Assembly: GCF_000699445.3 (NCBI RefSeq) | Contig: NC_067198.1 | Location: 3,849,301-3,913,300, forward strand | Reading direction: 5' to 3' | DNA from: Schistosoma haematobium | Taxonomy: Eukaryota > Platyhelminthes > Trematoda > Strigeidida > Schistosomatidae | DNA: 64,000 bases | Part shown: in pieces, positions 1 to 45,000 of the stretch | How positions within the stretch are numbered: position 1 is the stretch's first letter | Layout: each line of letters opens with the position of its first letter | The notes under the pieces: model-generated | The model's input: only the letters and a program-made list of their open reading frames with translations | The model's database searches: none | Told to the model about the DNA's origin: nothing | Program-made: the position numbers and the translations under genes

Positions 1-265
1 AACCGGGTTAGAGCATTAAACATTTGCTTTTTGTCCTCTTAGTTTTGTAAACAACACCCCCACCATGAGAAGGCAGTGAGTAGGAATTTCCTGTCAGTGG
101 CTGTATACGTGTGGCCATGTGAGAGCGTTTCGAGAGGTAGAGCTGACTCTTCCCACCCCCGATTCACCAGGGCATTCGGCGACAAGCTTTAAGTTGCAAT
201 AACACCAAGTCATAGTGTAGATTTTGACCTACTACTTAGATATATAGGTAAACGAAATTGAACAA
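1..265 (-). repeat. Family C AAAT-tailed retroposon, window-edge copy
   Basis: The reverse complement matches the first part of family C (ggtacggccga..., ggccacgcgtatacagcc, ggcgctttaaccggg). About 90 bp beyond the usual family start, up to about 265, is also shared with the copy ending near 46350. This suggests a longer variant of the family. Confidence 0.7.
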
Positions 266-1552: not shown

Positions 1553-4500
1553 GTAAGTTAAAAATAAACCATTTAGATATAGATTTAATTTACAATTACC
1601 AATTCTATTATCTAAACTTAATGTAAGTTAGTTTTTTAAGTATGAGAGTGATCAATTGTAGTCCTAAATAACAATGGGAAGATACAAGCAAGTGGCTATC
1701 ATGACTCAGTAGCTAAGTGGATAACACGATGAAGTTGGAAGCGAACGGTACTGGATTCAAGTCCCGGGATGAACATCAACTCTGGGATGCAGATACATCC
1801 AATTGATGAGTCCAAAATAGGACGAAGTGTCGCACATTCTGGATTCCACTGCTAACCACTATCCATCTTTACTTAAAAATAACTTGTGACTTAATGCTAT
1901 ATCGAGGCAATCCGCACAGTCTTCACATATGCCAACAAAAGACTGATCAATTGCAGTCATAAATAACAGTGGGAAGATACAGGTAAAACAGCACCAAATG
2001 AATTTGGGTTATTGTTTTGCAAGGCTGTGTGAAGGAATTTAATAGTTACATCAAATGTTATCATAAGTTTCTAACGTCTCAATTTCATGTGGGGTTAGTA
2101 AGATAACTGTAGGTTAGTGTAAAATATCTTCCCCTTTGAATGGAAATTGTTACTTTAGGAATGGGCTGCATCAACACTTGAACTAAGGATAGGGAGTGAA
2201 GTAGTCGAACGCGTCGACAACTTCACTTATCCTGGAAGTTTGATCAGCCTTAATGGGTTGGTGTCTGACCAAGTCTCTATACGGGTTCAAAAAGCTTGTT
2301 TGGCTTTTTCAATATACGTCACCAATGAAGAAGGCGAGATATCCGTCTATCAACTAAAGAACGAGTATGCTTCGCTACAGTTCGTTCTGTTCTACTTTAT
2401 GGCTGCGAGTCGTGGCCGTTAGTAGTAGAAGATATTCGTAAGATACTAGTATTTGATCACAGATGCTTTAGAAATATTGCTGGCATCTGCTGGGACTATC
2501 GGGTAAGTAATAGTGAGGTTAGACGCAGGGTATTGTGTAATGATGGTAAATCAGTCGATGAGGTTGTGAATCTTCATCGAGTGAGATGGTTGGGCCACGT
2601 GTTACGTATGCCTGAACACCGATAACCACGACGTGCAATGCTAACCGGTGTTGGAGATGGTTTGACGAAAGTCAGGGGCGGCCAATTCAAAATGTGGCAT
2701 CAGTGCTTGAAGTCACTAACTTCTAGTCTGAGTCATGTTGGTAGATGCAGACTACTTGGTTGGGGTCCTCGTGACTATCGTAACCAAATGTTGGAGACTC
2801 TAGATGGCACAGCTGAGAATCGATCACAATGGCGTCGGTGTATACACTCTTTGTCTTTCATTAAACCGTTAGATTCTAATTGTCTTTTCCTTCTACCAAC
2901 TAATTCTTTCTCCCTGTATCATATCCTAACATTTATTTATTCATGATAACAATCTAAACTCAATAATCTACACAATCATATACTGATATTTATGAGTTAT
3001 CATTTGAATTCATCTATATTACAATGAGTGTTCTGGATTATGCAATCTGTCATCAAATAATGCTCATTATTACAATAAGTAACCTAGTGTATTGTGTTAA
3101 TAATGATGAAATCATAGTAGATTTAAACTAACGAATCCTGACTATTTGCACGTCGAAATCCCCCTAAGTATTTCAGCAAGTATATCAAGAAATTTGTTTA
3201 AAACTAACATCTCTCATTGATGATTTATCATGATAGTTTTATGTAAACAGTAAATTGTTATTTGTCATATATATCTTTATTTATTTATTTATTTATTTAT
3301 TTACTTCCAAGGATGAATTTTCACCATTGACATTCCTTTATCCAATTGAAGTAGAAGCTCCAAGTCCTGAATTATATAAATTCCATGGGAAAATGTAAGT
3401 TATTATCATATTAATCTAACTTGATATTTGTTGTAATAATAGTTAAATAGTTCAGTTTATAACCGAAGATTTTATCTGTTTCATCAATTTGATATTCTTT
3501 AATGAGTTTACTTTATTAGAAGGTGAATTATTCACTTATTGTTTGAGATCAATCTGATGACATCAGTTCAGGTTGACGAAAAAAATAGGGTAATTGAGAT
3601 AGTGGAGAAAGTTTGTAGCTCAGATGAATGATTTTGATGAAGTTTTGTTCTCTGAGCTGGATGGTTTGGTCATGGAGCTTTCATTGTTCTTCTGAACGAC
3701 ATCATCAGCACAAACTTCAGGTAGAAGTCAACTCTATATTTGTATAAGTACTAGTGTATTTCCACTATCTATTTTAAAGCTTGTCATAATTCAAATTAAT
3801 ATGATTTAGATATATAATGTGTGATTGATGACTGACTCGTAACTTAACTATATAACATTACAAACTGTCAAGAATAAGATTTTAAAACCAATGAGGACAA
3901 AAGTAAGTTGAAGTCGTATTTTGAAAACAGAAAACCAATAGAAGAGTAATTTCCAGTTCACTGACTTTAAAGTCATTTATTTTTAACGAGAAATTTAGCA
4001 TATGATCAGGAGTATGAAAATGTTTCACTCATTAAATACCATAATATATCTGTAGTTTTTGATCAAGATCATAAAACAATTGATGTTTGACCACCATTAA
4101 AAGTCTGGAAGCACTGGACGGTTGTTTCATCCCATTGTGGGACTCCTCAGTAGTGTGCATTCACTATCCCACGGCCGTCCAGTGCTTCCAGGTTTTCAAT
4201 GGTGGTTTGACATCAATCGGTTCATGATCTCAATCAAAAACGTAACAATTTCCACAACCCTATACTGATCTGTAGTTTTAACTAAGAAATAAAGTTCCTT
4301 ATTGATGTGTTGGGAATGTTGGTAAAAGCCTTATATTTGTATTGCTATTTTAAAAATTTGAATATCTTGTTTTCGTGCCGAAAACGCCCATTTCCACCTT
4401 CATGTCCTATTTCCCACTTGGAAGGATCGTAAACGCAATTGGTTCGTTGTATCTCTTAGTATGCTATTTTGTAACACTTCCCAAGGACATTCTTATGCTG

Positions 4501-7500
4501 TGCATATTCGCTTGATTTGTGCTTGTTGTTGGTTGTTCGTGCTTCTGGCTGCTTCTGGAATATATCTGCTTATTTGAACGTGGATTTATCACTCTAGTTA
4601 GCGGTGCTGGGATGCGTCGGAATAGCTAGCTTATCTGTTATTGTGTCACAGAGTCTTCATTCCGTTCTCAGATTAGGTGAACTTGTAATCTCTTCAAACA
4701 TAGCATGATATACGTTCAGTGTTCTTATGAATATGATTATGTTTTTTTCCTTCTTTTGTCCTTGAAACGATGGATGAACATTTTACTCAATTTATCGAAT
4801 TTGGTTGGAAGAAAGCTAGGGGCGGCCAGACCAAAACATGGCACGAATCCATGAAGTCACTGATAAGTGGACTGAGCCATGTTGGTAGGTGTAGACTACC
4901 TGGTTGGGATCCGCGAGATGATAGCAACCGATGGTTAGAGATCTTGAATGAAATGGCTCAGGTGCATCCACTCTTTGAGTTCTCTTAAATTCTAATCTTC
5001 TGAATTCTTTATGTCGCTTTTTTCTCTTCCCAAATTTATTTCACTGGATTATACTTCTTGAATAACATCTTCAAACCCTAATCTTTACGATTACTGCTTA
5101 TACGCTATTGCGATCATGAACCGATCTAAGTTAGATCACCATTTAAAACCTGGAAACACTGGACGGCCGTGTCGTCGTAGTATGGAACTGTTCAGCAGTG
5201 AGCATCAACGACTCATTGGTCTAGAGGCTAGGCGATCGCGCACGAGACCGAAGATCCGAGGTTCGATTCCCTTGCCTGAAGTCATGGATGCGCATTGCTG
5301 ATGAGTCTCATACTAGGTCGAAACAGACATCTAGTGCTCCCATGTTTTCAATAGTGGTTTTACTTAAATCAGCCCATGATCTCAGTGGATATTTTACATA
5401 CTTTGATGAATAAGTTTGATTTTGAAACTCGAAAAGGAAGCTTAGTGACCAAGAGAATGATTAACATATTCAATACAGTAATTAAGATTATTTGTCATAA
5501 ATATGCTTTGGTACGGCCGAGAAGGGGTAGAGTCAGCTCTCACTCTCGAAATACTCTGATATGGTTACACGTATACAGCCACTATCAGCGAATTCCTATT
5601 CACTGCTTTCTCGTGGCGGTGATGTTTGAGAAATTGAGAAGACGAAAAGCAAATGTTCAATGCTTTAACTAGGTTGGTGGATATGGAGAGTCCACATAGG
5701 GAAGTTGGAAAACTCTGATTTCAAACCAATGATGCACATGGAATCTAGTATCCTGAAGCATCAAATGGCGTATGAATCAATCAATGGTCATCGGCTATCA
5801 TGTGACTGCATCTCCTAAGATTGTTCCACTGACTTGTAGATCAGACCTTTAGATTGAAAGTTTTATATGTGGAATCCGAAGAAAACCACCTAGTTCGGTC
5901 TGGGTACCCGAGTAGTATCCCAGCCGTCACACAAATCGAATGACGAAGTGTGGCACATATTTATTTGTTACCTCCTTGTACCAATGTTTATATGTTTAAA
6001 TAAATAAATAAATATTATCAGAAGGGGTTTGTGGAGATTTTAGAAATTTGACAGATTGAAATCATGAGTCAGTTGAAGCTAGGCCACCATGAAAAACCCG
6101 GAAGCACTGGACGGCCGTTTCGTCCTAGTAGGAGACTCCTCAGCAATGCGCATCCACGATCCCGCACCCCGCGTGATCCATAGTGGTCTAGCTTCAACTC
6201 ACTCATGATTTCAATCTGTGAAATTTCCAAAATCTCCATAAACCCCTTCTGATAATAATCATCTGCTTACTAGTGACTGACTTCAAGAGATGCTCCTGGA
6301 GTTCTAGTGGGAACCCGTTACCAGTGGAGTTCAATCAGTTCTGTTGTGAGATATCAGCTCACTGAAGACAATGGTATACGGTGGAGCAACCTCGTGGATT
6401 GGTTGAAGTTAGACATTAACACCGTTGGACGCCGGCCCAGTGGTCTAATGTTTAAGTGCTCACGCGCGAAACCAGTAGGTCGTGTGTTTGAATCCCGCGC
6501 GGTGCGGGATCATGGATGCTCACTGCTGAGGAGTCTCATACTAGGACGAAACGGCCGTCCAGTGCTTCCAGGTTTTCCATGTTGATCTAGCTTCAATTGA
6601 CTCATGATTTTAATCTGTGAAATAAATAAACATATATATTAACTCATTTTTATTTGCTTAATTTTATTATATTTCAATCAGGTTAATATTAATAGCAATT
6701 TTGTTTTATATAATATGTATAGAATGTAATTATATATTAACTAGTGTCTTTTTATTTGTTCTACTATGATTTTCTTTTCAAGTATACTACCAGAAATACG
6801 TATTCCTATTCACAAGAATAATATGTTACTAAGAGGTTGTGTATTACGTAATACGGACTATGTGATAGGTATTGTTATCTATGCAGGTAAGTTTCATGTT
6901 AATATATCTATGTGTTAATATAATTATATACATATCAATAATCATTTTTTAAGTAGTCATGTTTACTTCTCATAAAGTTTTATTCCAAATATGGTGAGTT
7001 AATTAAATATCGTTTACTTTAAGTCCTGGCCTAAATAATTCACGGAAAAGAAAATAATCAAAATATGACATCTAAACACCAACAGAAGTACCATTTATCT
7101 TATATTCTTTTAGTTATTTAGATGAGACTATAATCTATGGATGATCTATGAGCGATGCTAAAGTGATCTTGAGATTGTCTACCTACTTACTAGGACTAAA
7201 TGAGGATTATAAAGCTGTTTGTACAATAAGGATTATGATTCACAATTGATGGTTAGAGTTAAGAATTAGATTTAGGGTTTTCATTACGATCTGACATCAA
7301 TTATAATACCAAGACTCTATTTAGCCAAATTGGTGAATGAATTTCGCGACAAAGCCTAAGACCTGTTATTGTAAATTTGATTAGTTCGTCCATAAACTAT
7401 AGTCTTGCCGTTATCTGTTGATAACACTTTCCTCATCTAAATTTCCAAGGGTTGAACTTTTACCGGGAGATTCACTTTTTCACCTAGAATATGCCGATGA

Positions 7501-13500: not shown

Positions 13501-15383
13501 ATAACAAATCACATACAGAGCATAGTTCATGTCAAGTGAATACAAGAATATCGTATATTATAGAGAATAAAAAGATCATATGGGAAAAAAAAACGAATAC
13601 TCCACTGAATGATCATCACATTGAATCAGAACGGAAGTAATTTTGAACCAAAACTCATAATGAGTAAATGAGTCCAAAACTGGCTTTTCTTTCCATCATA
13701 TCAAACTGACAGCCATCTTATCAGTCATCATAGGTATGTAGTGGTAATATACATTTTTAAATCAAAAAAGAATTTTTTCCTTCTGGTTAGCGTTTTTTTA
13801 GCGAGTTATTTTTCTACGGGATAGGGTAGCTAACCCTATGCCCAACCCTCCTCCTTTATCCGGTCTTGGGACCGGCAGTAGCCCTCGGAGGGACTCCAGG
13901 CGGAGTTAAAAAGAATTTTACTCAATAAAATTTTCTAATGTTTATATTCTATTTAAGGTTGTGAAACAAAGGCAGCTTTGAATAATTCTGGTGTTCGATT
14001 CAAAAGAAGTAAACTGGAAAAACAAATTAATTTAGATGTTATATGGTGTGTACTTATTCTAGTTGTAGTCTGTGTCACTGGAGCTATTGGTAAGTAAATG
14101 GTGACAGGCATAAGTTTACTTTATTTCGATAACTCACACAATTGGGATAATAAGTTAATTGTAAATACATTAATAGTTTATAGCAATAATATCATAATTT
14201 GTATGACTGACCAGAAAACATGATGATATTGCAAAATGTTTGTTTATCATTAAACCATTAAATGGGAAGTGACCATAAGTTTCATATATCTGCGTTAAAG
14301 GTTTATATTGAACCATTTCGATCATCCTTCTTTGTTGAATGTGTCGGGGAGTTCCAAAATATGCTTACGAAACATCTTATCTAACCAGTGTTGAATAGAA
14401 GCTTTTAGAAAACAAAGAGCCATGGGTCACATTTTTGATTGGATGTTTATCTACGCTACTATTATATTCAGTATGTTTCTTCTTTAGGCTGTTTAATTCT
14501 ATCTAAACATAGCTATGCTTAAATATAGGTATTATTATGAGATATTAAAATATTTTATTTGATTACTGTAGAAAGTAATTACTTATACTCTATGTTATCA
14601 GTATAGGAGATTTCTGGAGAGTGTAATATTTTCACAGTTGAAATCATGAGTCGATCTAAGCTAGACCACTATTTAATATCTGAATGCACTGGAAAGCTGT
14701 ACTCACTAGTGACTAGTTTCATAATGCAACTCTTGGACTTCCAATTAGAATCTGTGACCAATGGAGTTCAACTATGTCGGATGTGAGATAGTTATCCACC
14801 TCAAGTAATGGATGAAGGGTTTGACAAGATCATGACGTGATTGAAATTAGACATGAACACGATTGGACTGTGATTGAGGGGTGTAGATGTTGATCGTTCT
14901 CGGATGAAACTGAAAGTACTGAGTTCGATTCGCTTATGTGGGATCATGTATACACACTGCTGAAGATTTTGTTACTAGGACGAAATGGTCGTCCAGTACT
15001 TCAAGGTTTTCGATAAGAGTCTAGCTTAGATTAACTCGTAATTTCAATCGTGAAAATATACTGTATGTGTTGAGATGGTAAAGATTAATCACTTAGAAAC
15101 ATGAAAGCTTTACGTGAATAAATCACTGAGGATACAGAAAGTATTTTCAAAAAATCGTATTTTTTGTTTTTGTTTTAGGTAGCGCTGTTTGGCATCAGAA
15201 TTTACCAGGCGATGATGTATTGTTCGTTGCACTTGACAGAAATTCTTCAACTTCAACACCTGCTTATCAAGGTTTTCTCAATTTTTGGAGATTTGTAATC
15301 ATTTTTCAAGTGAGTTAATCGCATTAGACAAGTTTAAGTAATTATTCATAACAATATGTAAAGAAAGATTGACAACAAAAGCG

Positions 15384-15429
<46 letters not shown>

Positions 15430-18400
15430 GCTAATAAGAACAACCTGAACAGAAAGGATGGTATCCAGCTAGCAATTACTTAACAAATGTTCGTTAATAA
15501 GTAATTGAACTCTCTTTACCCAACATGTTTATTCCAACCATCAACTTACACTTTTATTTTTACTTCTAACTCAATCTTATACATACTTACATACACACAC
15601 ACACAATCATTCATTCATTTATTTTCACATTGTGAACGTTTCACATGATCCACATATCATTGACTCATGTTATCCTATTTACTAAAGTCAACATATAAAT
15701 ATGATTGGATTATCCCAGTATAAATTTGGTTTGATTGTTACAACGCTATATATTTCTTTGATAATCTTGATTTCGACTATTACTCTGAAGAAGTTCAGAC
15801 AAGTTTATTGGACGAAACATTGGAATTATTTAAATTTCAATCGCTAAGATTATTTAAAATAAAATTTTCATATATATATATATCATGAATTCTCTATACT
15901 CGGCGCCCAATTTTCGTCAAACTCTTCGTTTGAATATTTTAATTAGTCTTTGAAATAACTTTCAAATTTATCGAATTTCTGTAATTCAGCCGTGACCAGT
16001 GGAGCTAATCCTTGTCGGGTAGAAACAGATGTCTACTTCAGTACAATGCAAGATGGTTGCGCAATTTCGTGGATTGGTTGGGCTTAGAAATTAACACTGG
16101 ATGCCGACTCAGTGGTACAGTAGGTTAGGCGTTCGCGCGCGAGACCGAAGGCCCCGGGTTAGATTCCAGCGAGCGGGATCATGGATGTGCACTGCTGAGA
16201 AGTCCCACAATGGGACGAAACGGTCGTCCATTGCTTCCAGGTTTTCAATGGTGGTCTAACATCAATCGGTTCATGATCTCAATCAAAGCTTAACAATCTC
16301 CACATCCCCTATACTGATAACGAAAAATATAGTTTTAGAAAGTCAATTTCACACTTCAGATTTGAATTGTATTCAAGTCAACGCAGGTTGTGCAACCGGG
16401 CCGTAGTATTATTGTGGTGAATGCTACTCACAAGATTGCTTACAAGTATTTTTTTTAGTGGAACGTCACTTGGTAGTTGTAATAGACGGCAGCCGTAGTG
16501 AAAACTTTCAGGAGATTGAAAAGCGCCAGCGTAGGCAGAATACTTTAGAGACTTGAATAAAAGCAAGAGAAGACAATCTAGAACCAACTCGGATTGCATG
16601 ATACAATAGGATACCAATGGATGCACATATTGCATAAACATTTTGTGGTTTCACTACATAAACATTCCTTCTACCCAGTGTCTTGTCCTACATTATCGGA
16701 TGAACTTTGGGAAATCTGAAACTTTCTCGGATATTTTTCGGATTATTATTACTTATATCTTCATTGTATCAATTATTAGATAAATTTATGGTTGGATTTC
16801 TATAATACTCTTACTTAAGCTTTCGACTGTCGCTATACATTTTATTATCCCTTAGTTATTTTTAATTATATATGCGTTTCCTGGTTAGATACTGAATTAG
16901 TTGGGACTTGAGGACCAATAAGTGTTAGGTCCTTGGATATGGTTCATTGATCGGTATATCAGTTCTTGTAATAGAAGGTAACCGGCCCTACTGACTACCA
17001 TAGATTGCTGATAACAAGTAGTATTTCTAACCTTTTCAGAAGTGTATAGATAATAGCTGAGTATAAGACTTAAATTAGTTGGATGATCATTTTCATTAGT
17101 ACTATTCCTTACATGAAATTAATAGAAATTAGAATCTTAACCAATATATGTACCTTTCATCGTTCAACCTTTTCATCTTAACTTATTCAATCTTTTTATA
17201 TATATAGAGAGTTCTTAATCTTGAGGAGTTTCAGAAAAGAAGAAAACACTCTTCTTGTAATTTGATCTTATCTATGCTAATAAAAGAAACTAACGGAAAT
17301 GGCTATTACAAATTAGTCACAGAACGTTCTAATTAATAACTGAAAAACATACACAGTAAATAACCTAACATGTAGGCTCCGCCTATAGACATTTTGATTA
17401 CTCCTGCGGCTGTGGTCGAAACTGTGAATTCATGTTTTGTCGTATATGAAATCCTTCAATTTCAATTATCATTCAATATTTTAATATTCGTTTTCAGATT
17501 CTGTGGGCAACATTCCACTATTCAAACGCCTGTTATTCCTCATGGAGGAGCATAGGCCGCCCACGAGCACTTTCCATCCAATTCTGTCCTGGGCAATCCT
17601 TTCCAGCTCTTTCCAGTGGCTATTCACCTTAACCTCCTAGGCTTGCTACATATGTTTCTGATTTAAAACAGAGAATCAATAGACGATGGTGATCATTTAT
17701 AACCAGAATTTAAAACTAATTTCTTGATAAAGCATCTTTGAGTCAACATCAATGTTGAGCACTTATAAACTATTTATTCTGTGGATTTATCTACGGCTAC
17801 AATTTAATGCTTTACATTTCTAACTCCAGTTGATTTCCCATATTTTGTGACCACTTTTTTTTCATTTCTATTGGTGAGTAACTGCCTCATATCTAACATG
17901 GTTAGACTCTAGTAGTCATACCTTCCCACTAGGACTAAAGGTTAAATCTCCTATGCGTCGTAGATGCTCACTGCTGAGGAGTCCCATACCAGGACGAAGC
18001 AGTTGTCAGTGCTTCCTGGTTTTCACTGATGGCCTAGTTAAGATCAGCCCATGATGTAAGGTATTAAACTCTATAATCTCCCCGACCACCTTGTATTGAT
18101 AATAACAAACGTTATTTTAGGCCTTAGTGTTTGTTAAATACAATCGATTAGACTGGAACGGGGTCACTTGTTCAAGCGAATTAACACCTAAACACATTTC
18201 TGTTGATGTTGGATGACTAGAGAGAATTGAATTTCGTGATAGTTAGCCCTTATCAACTTGACAAACCTATCTTATTAAAGGAAGTTTCGCTTCTCTTTGG
18301 AATCAAACACTTCTTACCCAATGTTATAGGTGAGTGGTAACATCTACTGTAATACAAATTAAAACGGATTCGAATGATCAGGGAATCATTTCACGCCGTG

Positions 18401-21400
18401 CTGACGAATGTCAACCACCTCAAATCCTGTTTAATTTTTCCCATTGACTAATTCCTACCATTTAACATTAATTCGATTATGTAGACAAATTCTTCTAATT
18501 CAATGGATATATTGATTACTAATTTAATCATTTGTCTTTCAACTATTGTGTTATATGCTAAATCTTACTTCGTCTATTTTGTTTTTGATGTATGGTTAAT
18601 ATCATTAACTTTTCATATAAGAAGTGTGATTTTAACTGTAAAAATACTGCAATCTCCACAAAATCCCCAATGCTAATAACAATCATTTGCTCACTAGTGA
18701 CTAGTTTTATGATATAACTCTTGGATTTTCAGTGAGAATCTGTAACCAATGGAGTTCAACGATGTCGCATCTGAGCTAGTTATCTACCTCGATCAATTGA
18801 TGGAAGGTTGGACAAGATCATGAATTGATTAAAATTAGACATGAACACCATCGGATACCGGGTGATTGGTGTAGATAGATGTTGAACGTTCTCATATATG
18901 ACCGAATGTATTGAGTTCGATTCGCTTATGTAGGATCATGTATTGACTCTGCTGAAGAGTCTCATGCTAGAACGAAACATACAGGTTTTCAATAATGGTC
19001 TGGTTAAGATCAGTTCATGATGTAAACTATGAGAACTGTATAACCTCCTCAAAATCCCCAATACTAATAACAAAAAAAATTGACCTGGAGTTAAATGACA
19101 TTGACCTGGTAGATTGGTTACTAATTTAAGTATTTTTTCTATTCTATTTCTCTACTCCTGTTTATTATAATATTTATATAGTATTGTATTGTTTGTTTGT
19201 TTTTCTAATAGACTATTATACCGTTACCATTGTATGTAACAATTGAATTTGTTAAAATGCATCAAGTATGGCATATGAATAATGATTTACAATTATATGA
19301 TAGTAATTTAGATAGACGTATTGAAATACGTACATTTAATATTCCTGAAGATTTAGGTCAAATTGAATATGTATTCACTGATAAAACAGGTACATTAACA
19401 GAGAATAAAATGGAATTTAAACGTGCTAGTATTAATGGAAAAGATTATCATACAGATGATGGTTAGTTGATTTATGATTTATCATTTATTATAATTGAAT
19501 ATGTTTTTCCTTTAATTGATCTGATCTATTTTTATCAAAATGTCATGAGTCAATTGAAGCTAGACTATCATGCAAAACCTGGAAGTACTGGGCGACCATT
19601 TCGTCCTATTATGAGACTCCTCAACAGTGCGCATCCATGATCCCGCCTTGTGAGATTCGAACCCAGAACCTATCGGCCAGGACGAGACGGTCGTCTAGTG
19701 CTTCCAGACTTTCCGTGGTGGTCTAGCCTTAATTGAATCATGATCTCAACTATTAAAATTAATATAATATCAGTAATATATATGTATAACAATATTTTGT
19801 TGATGTAACTAGTTAGTTTGATAACTGATTGCAAATTCTTGTTTTTAACTTAGAGACCTTTAGCTTTCTTGGAAAACATGATACAATTTAAGCAATGAGT
19901 TAGAAACATGGTGTTTTAATCTTTGACTTCAGTAAACTTCAGAATTTCGAGAAATCTGTTTTCCAAGCTATTTACATAACCATACATGAGTATTATCAGG
20001 TGATTAGGTTCTGTATAGATGTATTTTTTCAAGATACTTTGAACATAAATCACATCATCAGTTGGACTTACAAAAGTTACGTAAAATCTGTGATAATTAG
20101 TCGGGTTATGTACACATTATTGTAAAACCAATAAGACTAAAGATAGCGGCTACTGGATTTTAGCGCGATAGTGAAAAATATGATAACGAAAAAGCTTTTA
20201 TTTAACTGAATACTAAACAAAACCTACCAATATTTATAAGCAAAGATAGATGGTGGCTAGTAGTGAAATTCAGAACGTGTGTTTCAACCTATTTGGGACT
20301 CGTCATCTGGATGTATCTGCACTTCAAAGTTGATGTTCATTCTTGGACTTGAACCCAAATAGGACGAAACGCGCGTCCTGGATTCCATTGCTAGCCACTA
20401 TCCATCTTTGCTTATAATGCTTGTGACTTAAGTCAATATCGAGGAAATTCGCACAATATGCACATATACCAATATGAGACTGATCAATTGCAGTTCTGAA
20501 CAACAATGGGGAGATACATGTAAACAACACTAAGTGAATCTAACAATATTCAGTTTCTGTGATTTTTAAAGATTGATAAACATGATTGAACTAAGGAATA
20601 GGAACCATGGTTTATCAATTTGTGAGGGTAATTTAAAAAAGGTTTCGCTATTTTAAGATCAAAGAATTGACTGCGTAATTATTCGTCTGTATTAATCACA
20701 AGGTATTCATCTATTTCATCTCGAACCAATGCTCTACCCAAACTCCTGACCCTAAAACCTAATCCTGAATCTTAATCTGAATTAAAACGTTTAAACCAAA
20801 CCGTAGCTTGTTATAAGTATTTTATGTAATAGATTATTCTTATTATTATTATTACTTGCATTCTGATTGACTGAAAAAATTCCCTGAAAGTCGATAGTCA
20901 AGTATACTTTTGCCAAAAAGTGTAATGAACAAGTTTCTATACAAAAGTATTACCAAAATCTGTATATGAATAGGGGGATGATAGAGATGATAAATAACCA
21001 TAGACTCATTGTCTATTAAAGATTACTAATTAAATTGTATGATATTTTTAAGAATTGAAGAGGCGCTAAAATAACCTTCAGCTTTTTAATACAATAAACA
21101 TCCAAATAGAGTTTATCGAGTATACTCCTCGGCAGTTCGTTTTGTTTTACTTTATGGCAGCGAAACGTGGCCATTAAGAGTTGAAGATACTCGTAAGCTA
21201 CTAGTATTTGACCACAGATGCCTTAGAAATATTGCTGGCGTCTCCTGGGATCACCGAGTAAGTAATAGTGAGTTTAGACGCAGGGTATTAGGAAATGATG
21301 GTAAATCAGTTGATGAGGTTATGAATATTCTTCGACTGACATGGTTGGGCCACGTGTTACGTATGCCTGAACACCGATTACCACGACGTGCAATGCTATC

Positions 21401-24400
21401 GGGTATTGCAGATGGTTGGAAGAAAGTTAGGGGCGGCCAAACCAAAACGTGGCATCAGTGCTTGAAGTCACTAACTTCTAGTCTGAACTATGTTGGTAGA
21501 TACAGACTACTTGGTTGGGGTCCGCGTGACTATCGTAACCAGTGGTTGGAGACTCTTGGTGACATGGCTCAGAATCGATCACAATGGCGTCGGTGCATAC
21601 ACTTTCTATCTTCCCTTAAACTAAGAGATTAAAACCACTTCATATCTTTTATTCTACTAACTAATTCTTTCTTCCTGTACTATATCCTTATATGCAATCT
21701 TTCTCTTATATATTACCACCTTTGACCTAACCACTCCTATGAATCCAGTGTTCATCTTGCTGTGCTAATGAGGTATGGCAACCTGGACCGATGCATGTAT
21801 GTACCTGGTCCTACGTTGTAGCTGACTGACTGACTGACAAATAGAGTTTATGAGTATGATATACTCATCAAACATATTTAATACAATCATTGAAGTGATT
21901 CGTAAACTTAATTAAGGTAATACAAGCACTGAGATATTGCTTTTTCAAAAGTAATAAACCAAGATTTTCTTAATCTGAAGCTTGTATTATTGCTTCATAC
22001 CCCGCAATATTAGACAAAGTATCTTCTAATCAGCTAGACGTAAACCGCTACATATTTTATATGATCAGTTAGTTAAGCATTTATATTTCTCTCCATTTCA
22101 TCTACTTTCTACAAATATTTATAATCTCTCACTTTAATGTGTCTTAATATCAGAAGGGATTTTTGTGGATATTACAGTAATTTCAATGGTCGAGATCATG
22201 AGTCAGTTGGAGATAGACAATTATCGAAAACCTCGAAGCACTGGACGGCCATTTCATCCTATTGTGGGACTTCTCAGCAGTGCGCATCCACGACCTCGCC
22301 TCGAGAGATTCGAACACAAGATCTATTAGTCTCGCGCGCAAGCGCTTAACCACTAGATCACTGAGCCGGCATCTAACGATGTTAATATCTAACCTTGACT
22401 TATCCATAAAATTTGGCGACACATTCATCATTGTCATCAGTGAGTTCCTATCTCACAACAGACCTGGTTGAACTCCACTGGTAATTGCTTCTCACTAGAA
22501 CTCCTCTTGAAGCCGCCAGTCACTAGTAAGCATATGTTGATTAACATCAGAAGGGATTTTTGTGGATATCATAGTAATTCCAGTGGTTAAGGAGTCCCAC
22601 AATAGGACGAAACGACCGTCCAGTGCTTCCAGGTTTTTCATAGTGCTCTAGCTTCAATTGACTCATGATCTCAACTGTTGAAATTAATGTGTTTTGTTAA
22701 GTAATCCTGTTGTATTTTAAGTTCACTTTAAACTAATACCCTGTATTTTTTTCTGTTGCATATCATAGGTGATTATCATGAAAATAACGATCAATTCAGT
22801 AATCATTCTTCACCAGTACGTTGTTTTGCACTATCAGGGTGGCTTTTTTACGTTTTAGCTTTTGCACATATTGTGTAGACACTAACTACATCAACAAATC
22901 AATTTCTATTGTTTAAACACTGAGTAGTTAATAATGGGTTGTAACACAATAGTTATTTCCACCTTCAGTATTAATTTATTAATGAAGATTGGTTATTCCT
23001 AGTTTCGGGTACAATTCATGAAGTACTATAAGTGATATATGGATACATGGTATTCAAAAATTTATGGTTTATCGATTATATATCTGTGAGATATGGTCTT
23101 TAGCGACCTGCATTGTTGTTTAAACACATAAGAAAATTAGTACAAAGGGCTACCAAAATATATATGCTCCACACAAACTCAATGATTTGTGCATGGGCCG
23201 GGATACGCCATGACTGCCCAAACCGAAACAGGAGGTTTTGTTAGGGTGCCACTCCCTAGGTCTTTGACGAAGAAGTGTAATCCGAAAAAAACAGTGGATC
23301 GTCCGGAACATCAGTCTCATGGTACCTGATGACCAAGAATAGGTTAGTACACTATTTGTTTCCTTAGAGTACTGCTGCCTATATGCACCATTGGTTTAGA
23401 ATTATGATTTTCTGACTCCTCTAGATAGATCTCCATCGTACCTACCAATCCGGTTTAAGCACCGTGCAATCACTTTTTGTCTTCTCGATTTCATAAATAA
23501 CACACCAGCTGTCTGAATCATGAAAAGTTTGTAAGTATGTGAATAAATATTAGGTTTTCACTTTTCAAATCACACGAAAATTTGTAGATAAGATAAGATT
23601 GTTAATGATTTTGTCAATTTCACTATCTATCTGTTATAACCATGTATGGTGTATAATGAAAAGTGTCTTATCACTTACACAACAAAATGTTATACTGTAG
23701 TGAACAAGAAGACGGCTGGGGACAATCAAATTACAGAACATCTCACTAAAATTTGAGAACAATACAGTAAATACTTAATTTGAAAAATATCAATCCATTG
23801 TCTGAAACTTGACTGTCTCTTCTACAAATATCAGTCCATCGTCTCAGATTTCATTGCTTGTGCATTTTCATATCAATTGCTTTCCGTTCTCATACTTTCC
23901 TTCTTAATCTTCTACGGAAATACATTCTATTTCTGACCATAGTTATATACTACTTATATGGATATAAGTAGTTCAAACTACAGTACATCTACCAAGAAGA
24001 AGGGATTTATTTGTGTTCCTGAAATGTAAATGTAATTATTTCTAGTTGCCGTCTTTAAATAAAGAACTGAAATTGATATGTACTCCAACTCAAATCAATA
24101 CCTAACGAATAAATACATATTAAGTAAATTAAATTTACAAAGACCCTTAATCAAAACAACCATAAATGAACAATCATACCAATTCCATAGTATAAATTGT
24201 GTAAGTGACTTGAAAGTTCATAAAACTACTTTAATGATAAAAAAAAATATTTCATGAATTATCAAGTATATAAATGTTTAGGTCATTTTTTAACTAAGAA
24301 CAGAATTTGATTACAGGTAGTTACATAATACAAATAGTGTAATAAATGAAATCGATATATTCAAGGCAAATGTGATAGAATACTCTTCAGACGATATTGT

Positions 24401-27400: not shown

Positions 27401-30400
27401 AGGCTGCTGCTACACTGGTCGTTTTCTCCTGCATTTGTTGTTGCGTGTGTGATAGTAGAAGAGCCAGATCATCAGCGAAGTCTAGATCGTCCAACTGCAT
27501 CCTAGATGTTCATTGTATCCCGTGCTTCCATTCAGATGTTGATGTCTTCATGATCCAGTCGATCACCAGGAGAAAGAGAAAGGGTGAGAGTGGGCAACCT
27601 TGCCTGACACCGGTCTTTACCTCGAACAAGTTTGCCAACTGTCCCCCATGCACGATTTTGCAGTTTAATCCATCATAGGAATTGCGTATGATGTTGACTA
27701 TCTTCTCAGGTGTGCCGTAGTGTCGAAGAAGCTTCCATAGTGTTTTCCTGTCCATGCTATCAAATGCTCTTTCGTAGTCAATGAAGTTGATGTAGAGTGA
27801 TGAATTCCATTCAGTTGTTTGTTCCGCAATGATCCGTAATGTTGCGATGTGGTTGGTACACGATCGATCCCGCCTGTTGGTCTCGAAGTTGCGTGTCTAC
27901 GGATTCCTTCATTCTGTTTAACTATACTCTGTATTGGCTGGCTTCTCATGAATATTTTTTTAGCATAGAGCTGTGGAGATTGTTAAATTTCATTGAAATT
28001 ATAATTGATTTAAGTTAGATCGGCATTGAAAACCTGGAAGCATTGGATAAATGTTTCATTTTCATATCTACTCACCTACAATGTCGCTTGCGATCGCTCA
28101 ACACTGAGTTAGCACACAACGATGCTATTATGTAAAATTTATCAATCCATGACATTGTGCGATCATCTTCCATTGTCTCTGGTGAATAACTACTTCACAT
28201 CGGACAAGGATTTACTCCACTAGTCATAACTTCACATTAGAACTCCGCGAATTTTCTTCTCGAGATTACTCACTACAGTGCACGTGATAATAATACAGGA
28301 TTGTGGATGGACACTGATGGTTAGTCCCATACTTTGGCAAAACGGCCGACCAGTATTTACATGTATAAAATGGTTGTCTAACTTAGATTGGTTTATGATT
28401 TCAATGAAATCTCCATAAACATTTTACTCATGTTTCCACAGTGTTTGTCAACCTGTTAGGATAATTATTTTTTAAATGAGAGAAACTTCAAAGATTACCT
28501 GATTACGTGTTTTTATTAAGAATGAAAGCTTCTAAAGGTTTTTTGGTCAGAGGATGCTGTGCATTATCAACATACTTGATCTTGCATGGTTACTAATTAA
28601 TTGAAGTCGCAACTGGAATCTATTGTAAGTTAATACCTTGGTTTTAAGGTAATGAATAATTCATCATCAGGCTAGAATATATTGGGTTTCTCGCTGTAAA
28701 GCCGTCACTTGTCACTACTTTGTAATCTCAAACTAAAATGAAACATTTGTCTAGCACTATTGTTTAAAGCCATTGTTTAACTAAAATTGGTTTGTGTTTA
28801 TTATCGTTACCTTCTATATTGCTTACTTTGAAATATATATTACTTGTTTATAAATAAGTAGTTCAGATGAGAATTCAATTTATTTTATGATTTATGTTAA
28901 TTTCGAGATATACGATCGATTAATTGACTTCATGAGGTAACGAAATCCGCTAAATGATCAATCGTCATTGTAGTTACATTCAATTTGATTGTTATTGTAT
29001 CCAGAACTTGTAAATTTTTGAATAGAACTAGGTACTGTGTTTCTGCTTACGTTGAGTAACGGTTTTATATGCGTTCAACTGATTACTATTTTGCTTCGGA
29101 TTCCTGAACTCATTACTTGAATTTTTATGTTTTCCGTTGCTTTGCTACTATTATGACTGTATGTAGAATTAAGTTAACCTTTGTTTCTTAACTTTATTTC
29201 ACTGAAGAAATCAAAATTGCTCACAAGAAATTCGACCAATATTTTCTCTCACCAAACATCCGTTAATAATTTTAGCATGAAATCCTTAAGTAGTATCTTT
29301 AATTTGAGCAACGACTTGCGAATATGACTCAGGATCTGATTATTTCTACAGGCGTTTTTGAAAGGATTCGTTAAGTTTTAATTGAGATTAGATTAAGTAA
29401 CTTTTCTCTATCAGAAGTGGTTTTTAATAGTTGAGATCATGAATCAATTGAAGCTCGACCACTATGGAAAACCTGGGAGCAAGGCCGTTTCGTTTCGCCC
29501 CTTCAGATTCGAACCCAAGACTTCTTAGTCTCGCGCTCGAGCGCTTAACCCTTAGTCCACTGAACGGGCATCCAATGGTGGTAATGTTTAACTTCAACCA
29601 ATCCACAAAATTGAGCTGAAATTATAATTGAAATTTTTAAACTGTCGACCTCAATCACCAGTGTTATAATGCTGTAGTTAATAGATGATTATTTGAATCG
29701 AACGTTCAATCTCTGAGATTGATGCTTTTAGTGTTACTCGTTGACAAGTTTGATCAATCTCAACTATTAACAACAAAAGCTTCTTGTAAACGGCTATCCA
29801 ATGCTGACTAGTATTGGGGATGGTTGGAAGAAAGTTAGGGATGGCCAAACCAAAACGCGACATCATTCCTTGAACTCACTAGCGTCTAGTCTGAGCCATG
29901 TAAGTAGATGCAGACTACTTCGTTGGGGTCCACGTGACTATCATAATCAATAGATAGAGATGCTGGATGACATGACTCAGAATCGATCACAATGGTGTAG
30001 GTGTATACACTCTTTGTTTTCCCTTAAATTGAGATTAAAATCGCTTCATATCTTTCTTTTCTAGAAATAATTCTTTCTCCATGTACTATATCGTTATGCA
30101 CAATCGTTCTTTTATATGTTACTAGCATTATTATATTAACTACTTTTATAAATTCGATGTTGTTGGAGTGGTCGAGAAAATTGCTTGCAAAAGGCAAGCA
30201 AACATCATGAAACACTAAGAAGCGTTTCACCTAATCAGCGTTCACTTGAAGTTTTAGCCAAAAATATCAAGGAAGTGAAACGTCACATGCAGAGGGTCTG
30301 ATTGGCTGATTGCTACATTGCTATGTTTAGTAGCATTCCAGAATCTTCGAGCAACCCAAGGATACCTAAAAATATTATAGAAACCCTATATTTTTTGTGT

Positions 30401-31715: not shown

Positions 31716-32995
31716 CCTCAAATGCCTTGGTACGGCCGAGAGTGGGGACAGTCCACTCTCCTTCTCGAAATGCTCTCATATGGCCACGCGTATATAGCCT
31801 CTGCCTGGGAAGTTCTACTCACTGCCTTCTCGTGGCGGGGAGTTGTTTACGAAAATGAGAGGACGAAAAGCCAATGTGTGGCGCTTTAACCGGATTTCAA
31901 ACTAATGGTGCACATGGGCTGGCTCCAGTATCCTGAGGGAACAAATGGTGTATGAACCAACTGTTGGTCACCGGCTTTCATGGGACTGCATCTCCTCACG
32001 ATGCTCCACTGCCTTGTGGATCAGACCTTCAGGTCGAAGGCTCGGGATGTGGCCCCTTAGGGAAACCATTTGCTTCGGTTTGGGCACCCAGGCGGTATCA
32101 CAGCCCTCACACATATCAAATGGGATTTGTGTGGCGCGTATGTATTTGGAGCCTCCTTGTACCAATATCTATGTGTTAAAATGAATAAATAAATTATTAC
32201 TAATAATAATAATGTATTGTGAAAATAATAATTACAAAATTCACGCAAGTTTATAATCAGTCAGTTACAATGTAGGATCAGGTATATATATGCATTGGTT
32301 CAAGTTGTCATACCACATCAACACAACAAGACTAGATGTTAGTGACTTCAATAAATGATGCCACATTTTGATTTGGCCCCCCCCCTAACTTTATCCCGAC
32401 CGTCTCTAACACTATCATTGTGCGTTGTAGTAATCGATGTTCAGGTATACGTAACACTTGACTCAATCATCTCAGTCGATAAAGATTCACAATCTCATCA
32501 ACTGATTTACCATCATTCATTAATACTGTACGTCTAACCTCATTATTCTTTGTAATTCCGAACAGATTTGTTTCTCTTACCGATTTCACGCAAGTTTATA
32601 ATTAGTCAGTTACAACGTAGGAACAGGCATATATATGCATCGTTCCAAGTTGTCATACCGCATTAACACAACAACATGAACACTGAGTTTATAGAAGTAG
32701 TTAATTCAGTGATGGTGGTAATGTATAAAAGAAGGATTGTATATAAGGATATAGTGCAGGAAGAAAGAATTAGTTGGTAGAAAGAGAGGTATAAGACAAT
32801 TAGAATCTAACGGTTTAATGAAAATTTCATGCAATTGGTTCAAGAACAAATATTGGTGCAGAATAGTATGAATTCATATTATTTCAAGGTTTCTCGTCAG
32901 CTGCTTACAAACCAAAAAAATGTGATAGAATTTTTACATTGAGATAGAGTGAGAACAGTTGACATAGATAAGTGTAAATAACTGGGTTACAATAA

Positions 32996-39000: not shown

Positions 39001-42000
39001 AGATCCTTAATAAAGATATTAAAAACTCTAACTCCAAATCAACGATTTATGTCATCTCTATGATCCTATAAGATCTAGCTTTCCAGTTGCTCCATTTGAT
39101 CACTGGTAATCATGGGGATTTAGATGATGACATAACATCATCACCTTCTAGATTTCACATCTTCAGGCCAACTAACCCAGAATTAAATAAGTTGATTCAT
39201 TATTAGTGGATTAGATAGTACTGAAACTATTATATAAGCTATAATAAACATAAATTAACATTATGGATGACTCAATTTACAAACATAAAATCCATCCTTT
39301 TCAATTATTCATTATAAATAAACCTACTCTATGCCACTTTGTATCTGTGTATCGTTTCATTTTTACATCCTTCACTTAAGTTTTTATTTTTAAACCCTAT
39401 ACTAATAACACAGTCTCTTATAGTTTGATACATTGAAATGTTCAATCTAAGTGTGAAGTTAATGTTAAGAGATTGTATTCTTCCCTTAATTCTGAAAATC
39501 CTACAATGGATTATACATAAAACGAGAAATAAATTCTATTACTAAACGAATAACCTTAACTAATTTAATAGTGAGGTAGAGAATTGAAAAGTGAGTGAAC
39601 TATTGAGCAATTACTATTCATGGATTAAATGACGAAGATAGTCTTTTGTATCTTTGTAACTATGTCCACCTTTTTTTTTTGGCAAAAAAGTAACTCGGTT
39701 AATTTATTCCCGGTACTCTATTTGGCGTTCATTCTTTACAAATCTAGCATGAATTCAAACAAACCATCGTGCAATCCACTATCTGATATATTCATGATCG
39801 CTTTTCTTGCTACAAAGCCTTTTAAAATTTACTACATCCTCTAGTGCATGGTTAAGTAAACATATATATATGGATGCAGTCTTAACAAAGGAAAGGGAAC
39901 TCTCGCCGATGTCTCCGAGGTTGGTTGCGTTACCATACTGGGCGCACGCGGAACCAAATGCCCGACACATATCAATCTCGGTGGTCAGAGTCTGGAATAT
40001 TAACCCGATTCCTTTTCGCTACAAGCGGCTGAGATGCAACAATACTTTGCAGTTTACTGAACAAAGCCCGCGAACAAACACTATCAGGCACCCCGTCTCT
40101 ATTCCAACTTACCGGACCATGGTCAACTACTGTTCCCATGGAACCCTTCTCCACCTCGGCCTTCTACATGAGTGAATCACACTTAAAGTCAACTAAACTG
40201 ATTAACTCAACATGTTTTATCCTATGACCCGTTAAATATCTCGTGACGAATTCGTCATTCAGAATACCGATTTCTATGACTATCCCTGTGGTAAACCAAC
40301 GATGTGTCAACTAACGCTAGCAGCCTTGAGTCAACTCTGGTCCTCCATGTGTTAACTTCTTGCCTAGCCTAGTCTAGCTCAGCCTATTCAGTCCATAACA
40401 CAAATATCAGTTTCCGCTATATGATACTCATATTTCAGACATTCGTGGTTTATATACAGCCAAACTTGACCGCATTATGTCATAAAATGAAAAATAATAA
40501 TTATACAAAATCATGACAAAAGTAACTGTGAGTAAAGAGAGACTGTAAGTAATAGATAGAGAATAAATTAGGAATAGTCAATCATTTAATAGTAGTTAAC
40601 GGATCAAACGAGATCCATATAGATATTTCAATAGATTATTTAATTGTAATTATATGTAATTTCAATGATTAAGATCATGAGTCAGTTGAAGCTAGATCAC
40701 CATGGAAAACCTGGAAACACTGGACGGCCGTTTCGTCCTATTGTGGGACTCTTCAACTACTGAAATTACTATAGTACCCACAAAAACCCCTTCTGATACT
40801 AATCAACATATGCTCACTAGTGACTGGCTTCAAGAGGTAGATCCTGGAGTTCTAGTGAGAAGCACTGACCAGTGGAGTTCAACCAGGTCTGTTGTGAGAT
40901 AGTAAATCACTGAAGACAATGGTAAATGTGTTGCTCAATTTCGTGGATTAGTTGAAGCTGGACATTAACACCGTTGGATGTCTGTTTAATGGTCTAGTGG
41001 TTAAGCGCTTGCGCGCGAGACTAATAGGTCTTGTGTTCGAATCTCTCGAGGCGAGGTCGTGGATGAGCACTGCTGAGGAGTCCCACAATAGAACGAAACG
41101 GCCGTCCAGTGTTTCCAGGTTTTCCATGGTGGTCTAGCTTCAACTGACTCATGATCTTAATCACTGAAATTACTATAATATCCACAAAACCCATCTGATA
41201 TAATTATATGCCTTTATACTGTTTTTTTTCTTATTTTGCTTCGCTTTTTTATTGTATAGAAGATGGACTTGTTTGTATACATGTACTACGTATTCTACCA
41301 TTTGATTCAAAAAGAAAACGTATGTCTATTATATTTCGTCATCCATATACAAATGAACCAATTTTATTTACAAAAGGTGCAGATTCATCAATTATGAATC
41401 GTTTAGATAATACAGGTAAATTAATATGAATAATTCTATTAATATCAGTGTTATAGAGAATTTAATGAGTTTCTCTTTTTAACATAAGTTGTTGATATTA
41501 TCAAAACAAAGATTAAAGTAATGGTATATTCCAGAACCAGTTTATAGTTATATAATATACTCTTGTGGGTCAGGGTAATTTTACATTGGTTTTCAGGAGA
41601 ACCAGACACCATCCAGACTTTCATGTGACAACTCAAACACTACAGCTCAATCCTGTTTAACAAGAGAGTCAGACACGGCCCAGGCTTCAATTTTATAGCC
41701 CGAGCAGTACAGCACAATCCAGATTCTCAGGAAAACCAGACACCATATAGGCTTTAACACTACAACCTAAATAGTACAGCCCAATCCTGTGGCACAGCCA
41801 CACAGGTACCAAGCACTCTGGTGGACCATTCGTACCATTCATATACACATTCACGTCATATGTATAGTTATTCCGATCGACGATCACGTCAATCAATTAT
41901 ACACAGCACGAACAGGCCAAAGTTGATTTATTCCGCTTACACAACAGTCAAACTCATTAATGATAGCAATGGCGACATACCTTACAGTGTCCCAATGGCA

Positions 42001-45000
42001 ATGGCCATTGAGAACACTGAAAAGCAACCACCAATATAAATGAAATCGGTTAACTAGCAAACCAATTTCGTGCATGAATAGTCAGCAAAACTTGCCAAAG
42101 CAATGCTGAACCATCCATAATACCGTTGGTGAACCTCCAGTCTCATATGAGACCTTTAGTTCTACGTAGCCATATAGCTTATACTGCATACAACACATGT
42201 GTGGGGTAGTAAGCGAAATGGCCCAACCTGAAGCGTTAGGGTTTAAATAACGCTTAAAACCCATTGTCTGGTATTGGGATACTATTACTAGACCACAAAG
42301 ATCATTGTTGTCGCATTTGCGAAATTTTCATTTTTCCGACTTTTCAGATCCTGAGTTAGGGGTAGTATCCCTAGAACCAACTTGTAGATCATCATTATTA
42401 TTGTAGAATTATTCTCTTTATTATGAGCTTTTGATTGACCTATAAACTACTATCATAAAATTTACTATTCTTAAATTATTTTGATTGAGATCATGGACGG
42501 ATTGATGTTGGACCACCATTGAAAACCTAAAAGCACTGGACGGCCGTTTCGTCCTCCTCAGCAGTGCGTATTCACGATCCCACACGCTGGACTCCATTAT
42601 TTGGAGTTAGATATTAACATCGTTGGATGCCTGCTTAGTGGTCTAGAGGTTGATTGTTGCACGCAAGACTGAAAGCCTTGGGTTCGAATCCCTCTGGCAG
42701 TATCATGTATACGCACTACTGAGGAGTCCCACAGCAGGAAGAAACGGCTATACAGTGTTTCCAGGTTTCCAATGGCGATGTAACATCAATCGGTTCACGA
42801 TCTCAATCAAAAACTTAATAATCTCCACAACCCTATACTGATATTCTTAATTCGTTGTCAGTCTTATTTACAATATCGCCTATTCACAGGCACTTTTGGT
42901 TCGTTTATGTATAATTTTTATTTTTCATTTTATGGTATAGTGCGGTCTGGTATTCCTATGTATAAACTAAGGCTGTTTAAAATGTAAATATAGTAGTAAT
43001 TATTATTATTTCCTTATAAAAGCCTGAACCGGATCGCCAGGCGAAACCTTGGATCGACTTGAAATTCTTTTGCTGAGATTTTGAAAATACATTCTTCCTC
43101 TTTAATAGTAGTAATTAGTTGCTGACTTTTGAACTCAAGGTAGGATATAAAAAGAGGGTTGCGAATAACGGACCAGTGGGAACTTAACTGTCGGTTTGAG
43201 GTCATTAATGCTGGTCGTGCGTGTAGTCGGCTAAGTTAGAAACACTAAACTATAGGATAAATAGCAGGTGCGAAATAGACCGAATTGTCATGTGATATTT
43301 GTCAATAGCCACAACAGGTATTGAACTCAGGATCCTATCGCTTCACAGCTTGGACGTCACATGCATACCGCTGAGTTAACATCCAGTGATTCAGACATCT
43401 AGTGTTAATCAGTTATGAATATGACACAATGATCATATAGTCCATCGATAATGACCATCTTTGTTCCGATACGGCTGAACTAATTTATAAGTCGCCGCCC
43501 ACATAGTATATGTTTTTGTATTTAAGTTGATTGATTATTGGTAGTTACGATTGTTTCGAAACAGTTATCACTTTTTGTGGACAGTGAGGACGAATATTGT
43601 TCACACAACACGCGCATAGTTTTCGTACAATATATTTCAAATAACTGGATAAGGTCACGTATGCATCTCCCTTATTTATATATAAATCAGATCACAAGTC
43701 AGACATGATTGTGATTTGAAACTGGTCAATTGTTGAGGATATTCGTAGGTTACAAGCATTTGTCTTCGAAGCATTACTCTCGTACGTTGGGACTAGTGAA
43801 CACGTAATAATACTAGGCGAAGACAACAAATCAATTAATAAGATTGTGAATCATCATCTATCGAGGTGTTCGGGACTTTACTACATAGATGAAGCTCTCT
43901 AAAGGTCAAGTTAACAATACAATATAATAATATAATGATAATAATTTAATCAGCACATTATTCACTATTCAGTGATCAGTCAGTTATAAATAGATCTCAG
44001 TCGTGCCCTGGATAGCTCAATGCTAACGTCTGTGATTGTGAAGCTGAGTAACATGAAATCGAATCTATCAGGGGACATCATTTCGTTTAATATTACAAGG
44101 ATGTCTTGCTGATGAGTGCCAAATAACACGAAACCTGGGTTCGGCGTTACTTGTCAACTACATCCAACTCCTACCTTGTTTTCATTGTATTCTGAGCCCA
44201 GTTTTATTACTTTCTACTAGCTTCTTGTACTTCCTTTTTAAGTTCTGTCGCTGGATCCCTACAACAGACTGCTCAATTTTCAGCCCATTCGAACTCTGTT
44301 CCATTTTTAGAAGGTTAATTATCTTCTATGTTCGGATGAGCGGCACCAATAAATTGGCTAAAGCCTCTATACTATCCCTCTATCACAATGCTCATTTTAG
44401 GGAAATCTTTCATAATAAAAATGTTGATGCTTCGTAAAACAATTCGAAAAATTGAACGGCTACGGCTTTGGCTTCTTGTTAACTTCCTGACCTAAATCTC
44501 TTCAAAATAATTTTTTAATACTCTGATTTCTTCTTTACTCTCTATATCGAATGGTGACTCAGAATGTCAAGAGTAGGTATAAATTCTATGATTTGTACAA
44601 AATCTAACGCTGTTAGCTAACGAATTTGCAAGGTAAAATCTTTATATATCATATAAGCTGTTGAAGGTTTGTTAATTGATCTTGTCTCTATCATAAACAT
44701 CAGACCAAATTGGAACATGAAATTTTCTTTAATTGTATTTGAGTCTACTCATGAAATGCTAAATATTCATGATCAATCATAATAGTTGATGGACTCAAAC
44801 TTATGTACAGTTCATTCAGTTTGTTAAAGACTGGCACATACGAATTCATACTTTTGTCGTTCACTGGAATGTAAATCGAAAAAATAATTATATTAAATTT
44901 TGTAACTTGAGTTGTTTAGGTCTAAATGAACAAAGGCGATGAATTCTGGAGTGTTTCATTTGTATATCAAACAATTCCAGATTCTAACTTGTAGAAAAGA

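Follow-up and report, generated by a model that had tools for sequence, protein, structure and literature searches.

Foldback insertions of two hammerhead-bearing retroelements in Schistosoma haematobium, with outer ends mostly at two sites, as likely traces of Penelope-type priming from both target strands

Mobilisation of animal retrozymes by Penelope-like elements (PLEs) has been proposed from the co-occurrence of the two and from the hammerhead ribozymes that they share (PMC7229834, PMC7761336, PMC8969392), and the accessible text of the first two sources names PLEs as strong or likely candidates for the enzyme concerned. Among PLEs, Pen2a of Adineta vaga lies within a 9-bp duplication, has an inverted pLTR that falls short of the direct ones by 37 bp, and carries a 31-bp tail at one end; self-priming is proposed in the same source for head-to-head Penelope foldbacks (PMC3846280, available portion). 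A purified PLE protein of Anolis, PAc, cuts and extends both target strands at AT-rich cuts, and starts its cDNA within an AC-rich stem-loop, at two neighbouring internal positions that delimit the tail; reckoned from positions +26 and +111 of that work, the distance from hammerhead cut to start is about 85 nt (PMC11167929, available portion). The later steps of insertion were left unvalidated there, so that, with self-priming on the one side and this reaction on the other, the origin of inverted, tailed PLE copies is unsettled. The accessible part of PMC12910113 has nothing on tails, and our literature search, which was thin on subscription journals, found no description of foldback retrozymes with two-site ends.

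We have mapped two short repeats, S1 and S2, in a 64-kb stretch of DNA (hereafter the window), in 20 random 10-kb stretches (200 kb) and in targeted loci of the 400-Mb assembly, using dynamic-programming segmentation of both strands onto circular units; a segmentation with lax penalties over-split the copies and was set aside. The S2 unit, built from copies retrieved with the window copy at 41000-41200 as the similarity query, is 404 nt long, position 1 being the base directly 3' of the hammerhead cleavage site, and the S1 unit is 334 nt long. A 290-nt S1 unit was dropped because the 44 nt between tail and head were absent from it. Both are short retroelements that carry a hammerhead, and they are not PLEs, their units being too short for an RT and an endonuclease. 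The window contains nine type I hammerheads (Rfam, RF00163), and S1 and S2 account for 3.4% and 6.9%, respectively, of the 264 kb formed by the window and the random sample. The young S2 set consists of copies selected by similarity to one window copy, L061-L066 having entered through a query with the tail-to-head junction. Left out before counting were L001 (the window copy at 40649 itself), copies cut by, or near, the ends of retrieved stretches and, in the template and arm count alone, L050, a segmental duplicate of L048. L062 and L063 (both A/B by segmentation, see below) are absent from the young S2 duplication count, as are L064-L066, and the S1 counts use a filtered set, the unfiltered list having contained matches on S2 ribozymes. 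The features of the window are collected in Table 1.

Table 1. Copies of S1 and S2 and other features located in the window
Feature	Position	Strand	Outer ends (left/right unless stated)	Target duplication	Remarks
S1 copy without foldback	1641..2005	+	unit 96 to 165		about 360 nt, longer than one unit
S2 foldback	4060..4267		left arm at B (unit ~57); right arm at A (..CTATACTG) by the duplication	ATCTGTAGTTTT, 12 bp, 4048-4059 and 4268-4279	
S2 foldback, old	5112..5382		both near B	none	
S2 foldback	6016..6619		inverted arm from A; forward arm from B	AAATAAATAAAyAT	forward arm 451 nt, more than one unit
mir-3492 microRNA precursor match	7679-7756	-			86.8 bits
Dispersed repeat, ~450 bp	10064-10523				
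S2 foldback, old	14591..15056		A / unclassified end	TATACTsTATGT	
Fragment akin to 3' region of the L013 PLE (PLE-C)	15421..15930	+			
S2 foldback, old and weak	17874..18100			none	additional to the copies of the initial annotation
S2 foldback	19543..19771		both B (48, 76)	none	inner ends 315 and 388
S1 foldback	20235..20539		B (46) / A (167)	CTAmCAATATT	score 8, below cut-off
S2 foldback	22143..22683		one A arm, one B arm	TTAATGTGT	arm lengths 463 nt (A, over one unit) and 95 nt (B)
Dispersed repeat, ~450 bp	26675-27148				
S2 foldback, old	28009..28418				the copy at 27985; 54-nt gap inside left arm unassigned to the unit
Fragment akin to 3' region of the L014 PLE (PLE-B)	32842..32925	-			
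S2 foldback	40657..41200		one B arm, one A arm	TAATTATATG	B arm stops inside the hammerhead; A arm is 446 nt long
S2 type I hammerhead	41067..41112	+			RF00163, 50.4 bits
S2 foldback	42475..42841		B / A	TATTCTTAA	
S2 foldback	47965..48452		B / A	AAwTATTTTTTTA	
Dispersed repeat, ~450 bp	48783-49241				
Dispersed repeat, ~450 bp	49786-50252				
Dispersed repeat, ~450 bp	53040-53506				
S1 foldback	61412..61740		A (165) / B (37)	best repeat 7 bp only	
S1 type I hammerhead	61665..61709	+			RF00163, 47.4 bits
Dispersed repeat, ~450 bp	62744-63182				

All 12 copies (ten of S2 and two of S1) that the initial annotation had described as foldbacks begin at the left with 3' sequence in reverse and carry it forward at the right. 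They map to 4060, 5112, 6013, 14591, 19543, 22137, 28009-28418, 40649, 42482 and 47960 in S2 and to 20228 and 61412 in S1, which for some copies differs by a few bases from the limits in Table 1. The polarity is the same wherever opposite arms lie side by side: 40 head-to-head and 0 tail-to-tail pairs were found at the S2 loci examined, and 13 and 0 at the S1 loci (the pair at L021 is weak), while a reversed null run on the window and the 200 kb of random sequence (264 kb) gave 0 adjacent pairs. Foldbacks are common, with 22 in S2 against 30 single arms of at least 90 nt in the window and random sample. Many are flanked as a whole by target duplications. Fourteen of the 19 young S2 foldbacks reach the cut-off, a score of 9 or more, which only 0.7% of shuffled flank pairs do; in the search that covered S1 and the older window copies, 4% of shuffled flank pairs pass the same cut-off. 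The young S2 figures come from a search that replaced a strict first one, in which overlapping ends were missed. The S2 duplications measure 9-14 bp, to which an 18-bp AT repeat at L026 has to be added, and those of S1 measure up to 16 bp. Four of the 19 (L044, L045, L046 and L051) have no duplication of at least 7 bp and, in the window, a flank search found none of that length for the copies at 5112, 17874, 19543 and 28102. The three duplications quoted in the initial annotation, around the copies at 4060, 40657 and 22143, are exact, a different 9-bp repeat being preferred for the last of them under wider limits. The flanking of whole foldbacks by duplications bears out its proposal that the inversion arose during insertion. 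The targets are AT-rich: the three target bases beside the A end are all A or T in 16/20 cases (7.8 expected), and those beside the B end in 13/14 (5.4 expected).

The two arms of a foldback, which had been thought to share the same 3' end, do consist of inverted and forward 3' parts, but they mostly end at different sites, one at A and the other usually at B. Where the duplication is clear, S2 arms stop either at CCATTG| (site B, unit ~60) or at CCCATCTGAT| (site A, unit ~93); the two sites are 33 nt from each other, give or take a few bases, B being nearer the ribozyme. In S1 the outer ends fall at about 31-52 (B) and at 163-168 (A), so that B is some 125 nt nearer the ribozyme. With windows for A and B that were defined after the data had been seen, each of the 20 foldbacks above the duplication cut-off (14 of S2 and six of S1) has exactly one A arm, and 17 of them are A/B. 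For the young S2 foldbacks above the cut-off the figure is 13/14 (binomial p 0.0009 against 50%), the remaining one being A/other (L061), and the 13 include L026, whose duplication falls in the AT repeat. Six of the 13 S1 foldbacks pass the cut-off, four as A/B and two as A/other (L007 and L024:1819). Among the older S2 foldbacks of the window, five lie above it, and those at 4060, 6016, 42475 and 47965 are A/B, that at 14591 A/other. When the duplication filter is removed, 14/18 young S2 and 10/13 S1 foldbacks are A/B. In the window and random sample, where old copies are noisier, the 22 S2 foldbacks divide into 12 A/B, three B/B, two A/A and five not fully classified, the copy at 4060 being counted there as B/B by segmentation although its duplication makes it A/B. 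The exceptions among foldbacks without a duplication of at least 7 bp are L046 and L051, both A/A, and L044, with ends at 81 and 97; L045 is A/B.

The same two sites emerge when arms are counted singly. Of 118 S2 arms of at least 80% identity, 100 end at A or B (58 and 42, respectively), as do 57 of the 60 foldback arms in this set, and six of the seven single-arm copies above the cut-off end at A. We infer that the A primer is obligatory and that the B primer is optional, lying usually yet not always at B. B arms also differ from A arms at their other extremity: 16 of the 42 stop inside the S2 hammerhead (unit 360-404), against one of the 58 A arms, perhaps because the RT stalls there or because joining is preferred at this place. 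Site A of S2 is predicted to lie in an AC-rich loop on a weak stem-loop (-2.3 kcal/mol), whose stem, judged by eye, is not kept in all of 17 aligned sequences. Two S2 arms in different flanks, at L051:482 and L057:482, both run from unit 77 to 99 over 427 nt.

S1 and S2 have likely been moved in trans by a Penelope RT-endonuclease that would have primed head-to-tail RNA from both cut strands, which is the most economical mechanism and a reading that we draw from the insertion footprint, as we do the link to a PLE enzyme as such. One-sided ends, inverted arms, short duplications and AT-rich targets correspond together to the published PLE signature, which makes a PLE enzyme the best explanation of these copies. 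The templates would be transcripts of at least two units, or circles that arose when such transcripts were cleaved by the hammerhead and ligated. The endonuclease would cut the two target strands 9-16 bp apart; the 3' end of one strand would then start a cDNA at site A, and the 3' end of the other would usually start a second cDNA at site B, on the same RNA or on a sister. Joining of the two cDNA ends, at junctions where 0-4 nt are shared, followed by repair, would yield a foldback with its tails outwards, and extension of the A primer alone would yield a single-arm copy. We have counted against this mechanism the length of the S1 tail, the A/A and A/other cases, the young foldbacks that lack a duplication, the weakness of the stem-loop at site A of S2, the variants that arms do not share, and the finding of PMC11167929, within its available portion, that the start site is alike on both strands.

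What kind of RNA served as template can be judged in part from how far the arms read. Among the 100 S2 arms at A or B, 91 cross the hammerhead cleavage site, two stop within 3 nt of the cut and seven stop before it, and 28 of 34 S1 arms cross the site; thus, the ribozyme of most templates was uncut or had been ligated again. Fourteen of the 100 S2 arms and six of the 34 S1 arms read on into the upstream unit, and for S2 this indicates that those templates were head-to-tail. The A arm of the foldback at 40657 crosses a tail-to-head unit junction. A genome query with the tail-to-head junction returned 3179 first-look candidates, and the 40 that were scored had 96-99% identity. The initial annotation had invoked a multimeric or circular RNA, primed at its tail from both target strands. 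The outer ends fit priming near the RNA tail from both strands, and the arms that over-read the unit indicate that some templates were indeed multimeric or circular, but a foldback alone needs no circle: two primings on one linear RNA, or on two, would duplicate the 3' end as well.

A circle is nevertheless tentatively suggested by the lengths of the A arms, which terminate five times more frequently at 340-470 nt than at 100-340 nt (bootstrap 3.1-8.5), at no single sharp 5' position. Termination near one 404-nt lap fits a circle, and it also fits unit-length transcripts or varied 5' ends of the RNA. Circles made by the ribozyme may be the direct templates of a Penelope enzyme, the two halves of the enzyme cutting both strands and starting, on one retrozyme RNA, two cDNAs at two fixed sites that each run for about one lap; we regard this as possible, at somewhat under even chances. 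We think no less and no more of the variant in which the same enzyme primes at the same two sites on linear multimeric transcripts alone. The over-unit arms require no more than a linear dimer, hammerhead mutants insert normally in vitro, and unprocessed RNA has been suggested as the main substrate (PMC11167929, available portion), whereas the rise in A-arm termination near one lap is what would be seen if the RT met its own start on a circle. At L048, 18 of 186 positions differ between the two laps and no variant is common to them, a result that gives no evidence of a circle. One and the same S2 copy, about 590 nt long, seems to be present at L048 and L050, in the same flank and about 20 kb apart on contig C7, apparently by segmental duplication.

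In LINE-1 twin priming, two cDNAs are made from both target strands, the second priming being internal and scattered, so that the 5' part is inverted; foldbacks, duplications and short junction homology are likewise among its products. S1 and S2 might have been inserted in this manner, following a nick by a LINE endonuclease and priming of the second strand at a chance complementarity on the SINE RNA, and the foldbacks, the duplications and the 0-4 nt shared at the foldback junctions (a raw count) are compatible with it. We nonetheless consider it improbable. Scattered second primings would be expected, as against 57/60 foldback arms with an end at one of the two sites. Poly-A is absent after site A in the arm ends examined, and the arms, which overlap, both contain the 3' end. 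S2 thus shows neither the scattered second priming nor the A-rich or simple-repeat 3' end of a LINE-dependent SINE.

The inner ends bear on two other questions, whether the foldbacks were inherited and whether a strand primed on itself. They differ from copy to copy, as had been stated initially: no inner-end pair recurs among the listed foldbacks. Within a foldback, the median offset between the inner ends of the arms is 138 nt for S2 and 79 nt for S1, with 0/40 and 0/13 offsets of 10 nt or less. These observations argue against the inheritance of one master foldback, the circumstance that would have spoken against the original interpretation, and against snap-back priming. In the latter, proposed for the Penelope foldbacks of Adineta (PMC3846280, available portion), the nascent strand folds and primes on itself, so that near-equal inner ends on either side of a small palindrome would be expected; moreover, the arms of S1 and S2 start at two different sites, and we regard self-priming as a very poor candidate here.

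In three of the 16 foldbacks compared, the arms have private variants in common, namely ten at L029, six at L045 and five at L026 (0.45, 0.43 and 0.16 expected), which indicates that a single source RNA, or that RNA and its sisters, gave rise to both cDNAs. The arms of the other 13 share 0-2 private variants, and those of L007 differ at 13 sites with 0 shared variants. At L044:314-907, head-to-head S2 arms carry 15 and three variants, respectively, and have no duplication; they are probably two separate insertions. An origin of the foldbacks after insertion, by recombination or by nested, separate insertions of two copies, would fit L044 and may fit L046 and L051 (A/A, no duplication), but in view of the duplications around whole foldbacks in 14/19 young S2 cases, the private variants shared by some arms and the 0 tail-to-tail pairs among 53 adjacent pairs, we regard it as hardly credible in general.

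PLEs themselves are present in this genome. A scan of the retrieved DNA, translated in six frames, for an RT motif pattern gave three PLE-like RT sequences. L028 has a frame of 672 aa with an RVT_1 match (3.7e-8) and a GIY-YIG match below threshold (0.0094; both Pfam), and relatives in other schistosomes; a Pfam GIY-YIG search of the genome gave a single short frame, L049, of 81 aa. Of the three PLE foldbacks inspected, one has a clear duplication. This foldback, at L024:9153-9982 and of the L014 family by its 3' end, lies within AAGTyATACTTA and has a right arm 31 nt longer than the left; one-sided extensions are also seen in the L013 element and in a foldback that stands alone at L028:8063-8286 (all by eye). 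No obvious similarity between the tails of S1 or S2 and those of PLEs was seen by eye. A further dispersed repeat of about 450 bp (L014:3649-4100) is common to many random loci.

S1 and S2 are small and abundant, so that a large number of insertions could show where each of the two cDNAs began. The two families thus offer a direct test both of what mobilises retrozymes and of how inverted PLE copies originate, and they argue against self-priming. Were RNA circles the direct templates of a Penelope enzyme, each foldback in the genome would preserve the trace of a Penelope retrotransposition and of the copying of a circle into DNA.

S1 and S2 resemble the metazoan non-LTR retrozymes in having a type I hammerhead in the unit, and units that fall within about 170-400 nt (334 nt in S1 and, at the upper bound, 404 nt in S2) and stand head to tail, as the over-unit arms attest. 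Like S1 and S2, the retrozymes described by Cervera and de la Peña (2020; PMC7229834, available portion) have units of a few hundred nucleotides and duplications that exceed the 4 bp seen in plant retrozymes; the word "inverted" has 0 occurrences in the main text of that paper, and inverted copies are not described there under that word. S1 is also like SMalpha of Schistosoma mansoni (W36.2_W001, 335 bp) in its length, its hammerhead and its SINE-like nature, a likeness by description, and the accessible part of the source (PMC8490949) makes no mention of foldbacks whose ends fall at two sites. From PLEs, S1 and S2 differ in the absence of an ORF for a telomerase-like RT and a GIY-YIG endonuclease, for which 334 and 404 nt are too short, and in their full hammerhead, that of PLEs being minimal (PMC7229834, PMC7761336, available portions). 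The start of PAc, about 85 nt past the cut, compares with S2 sites 60 and 93 nt past it, and is alike on both strands, unlike the A/B split of S2 and S1 (PMC11167929, available portion). In their insertions, S1 and S2 come closer to PLEs. Their foldbacks are head-to-head inverted terminal copies inside one duplication, as in the PLE signature. The targets of both are AT-rich, with duplications somewhat longer than the 8-10 bp given for Adineta in the accessible text. The one-sided tail of about 30-40 nt has its counterpart in the 33 nt of S2 (13/14), and in S1 the tail is again one-sided, at about 125 nt much longer than published. Outer ends at two fixed sites resemble, in sum, the published Penelope tail signature and point to a specific enzyme.
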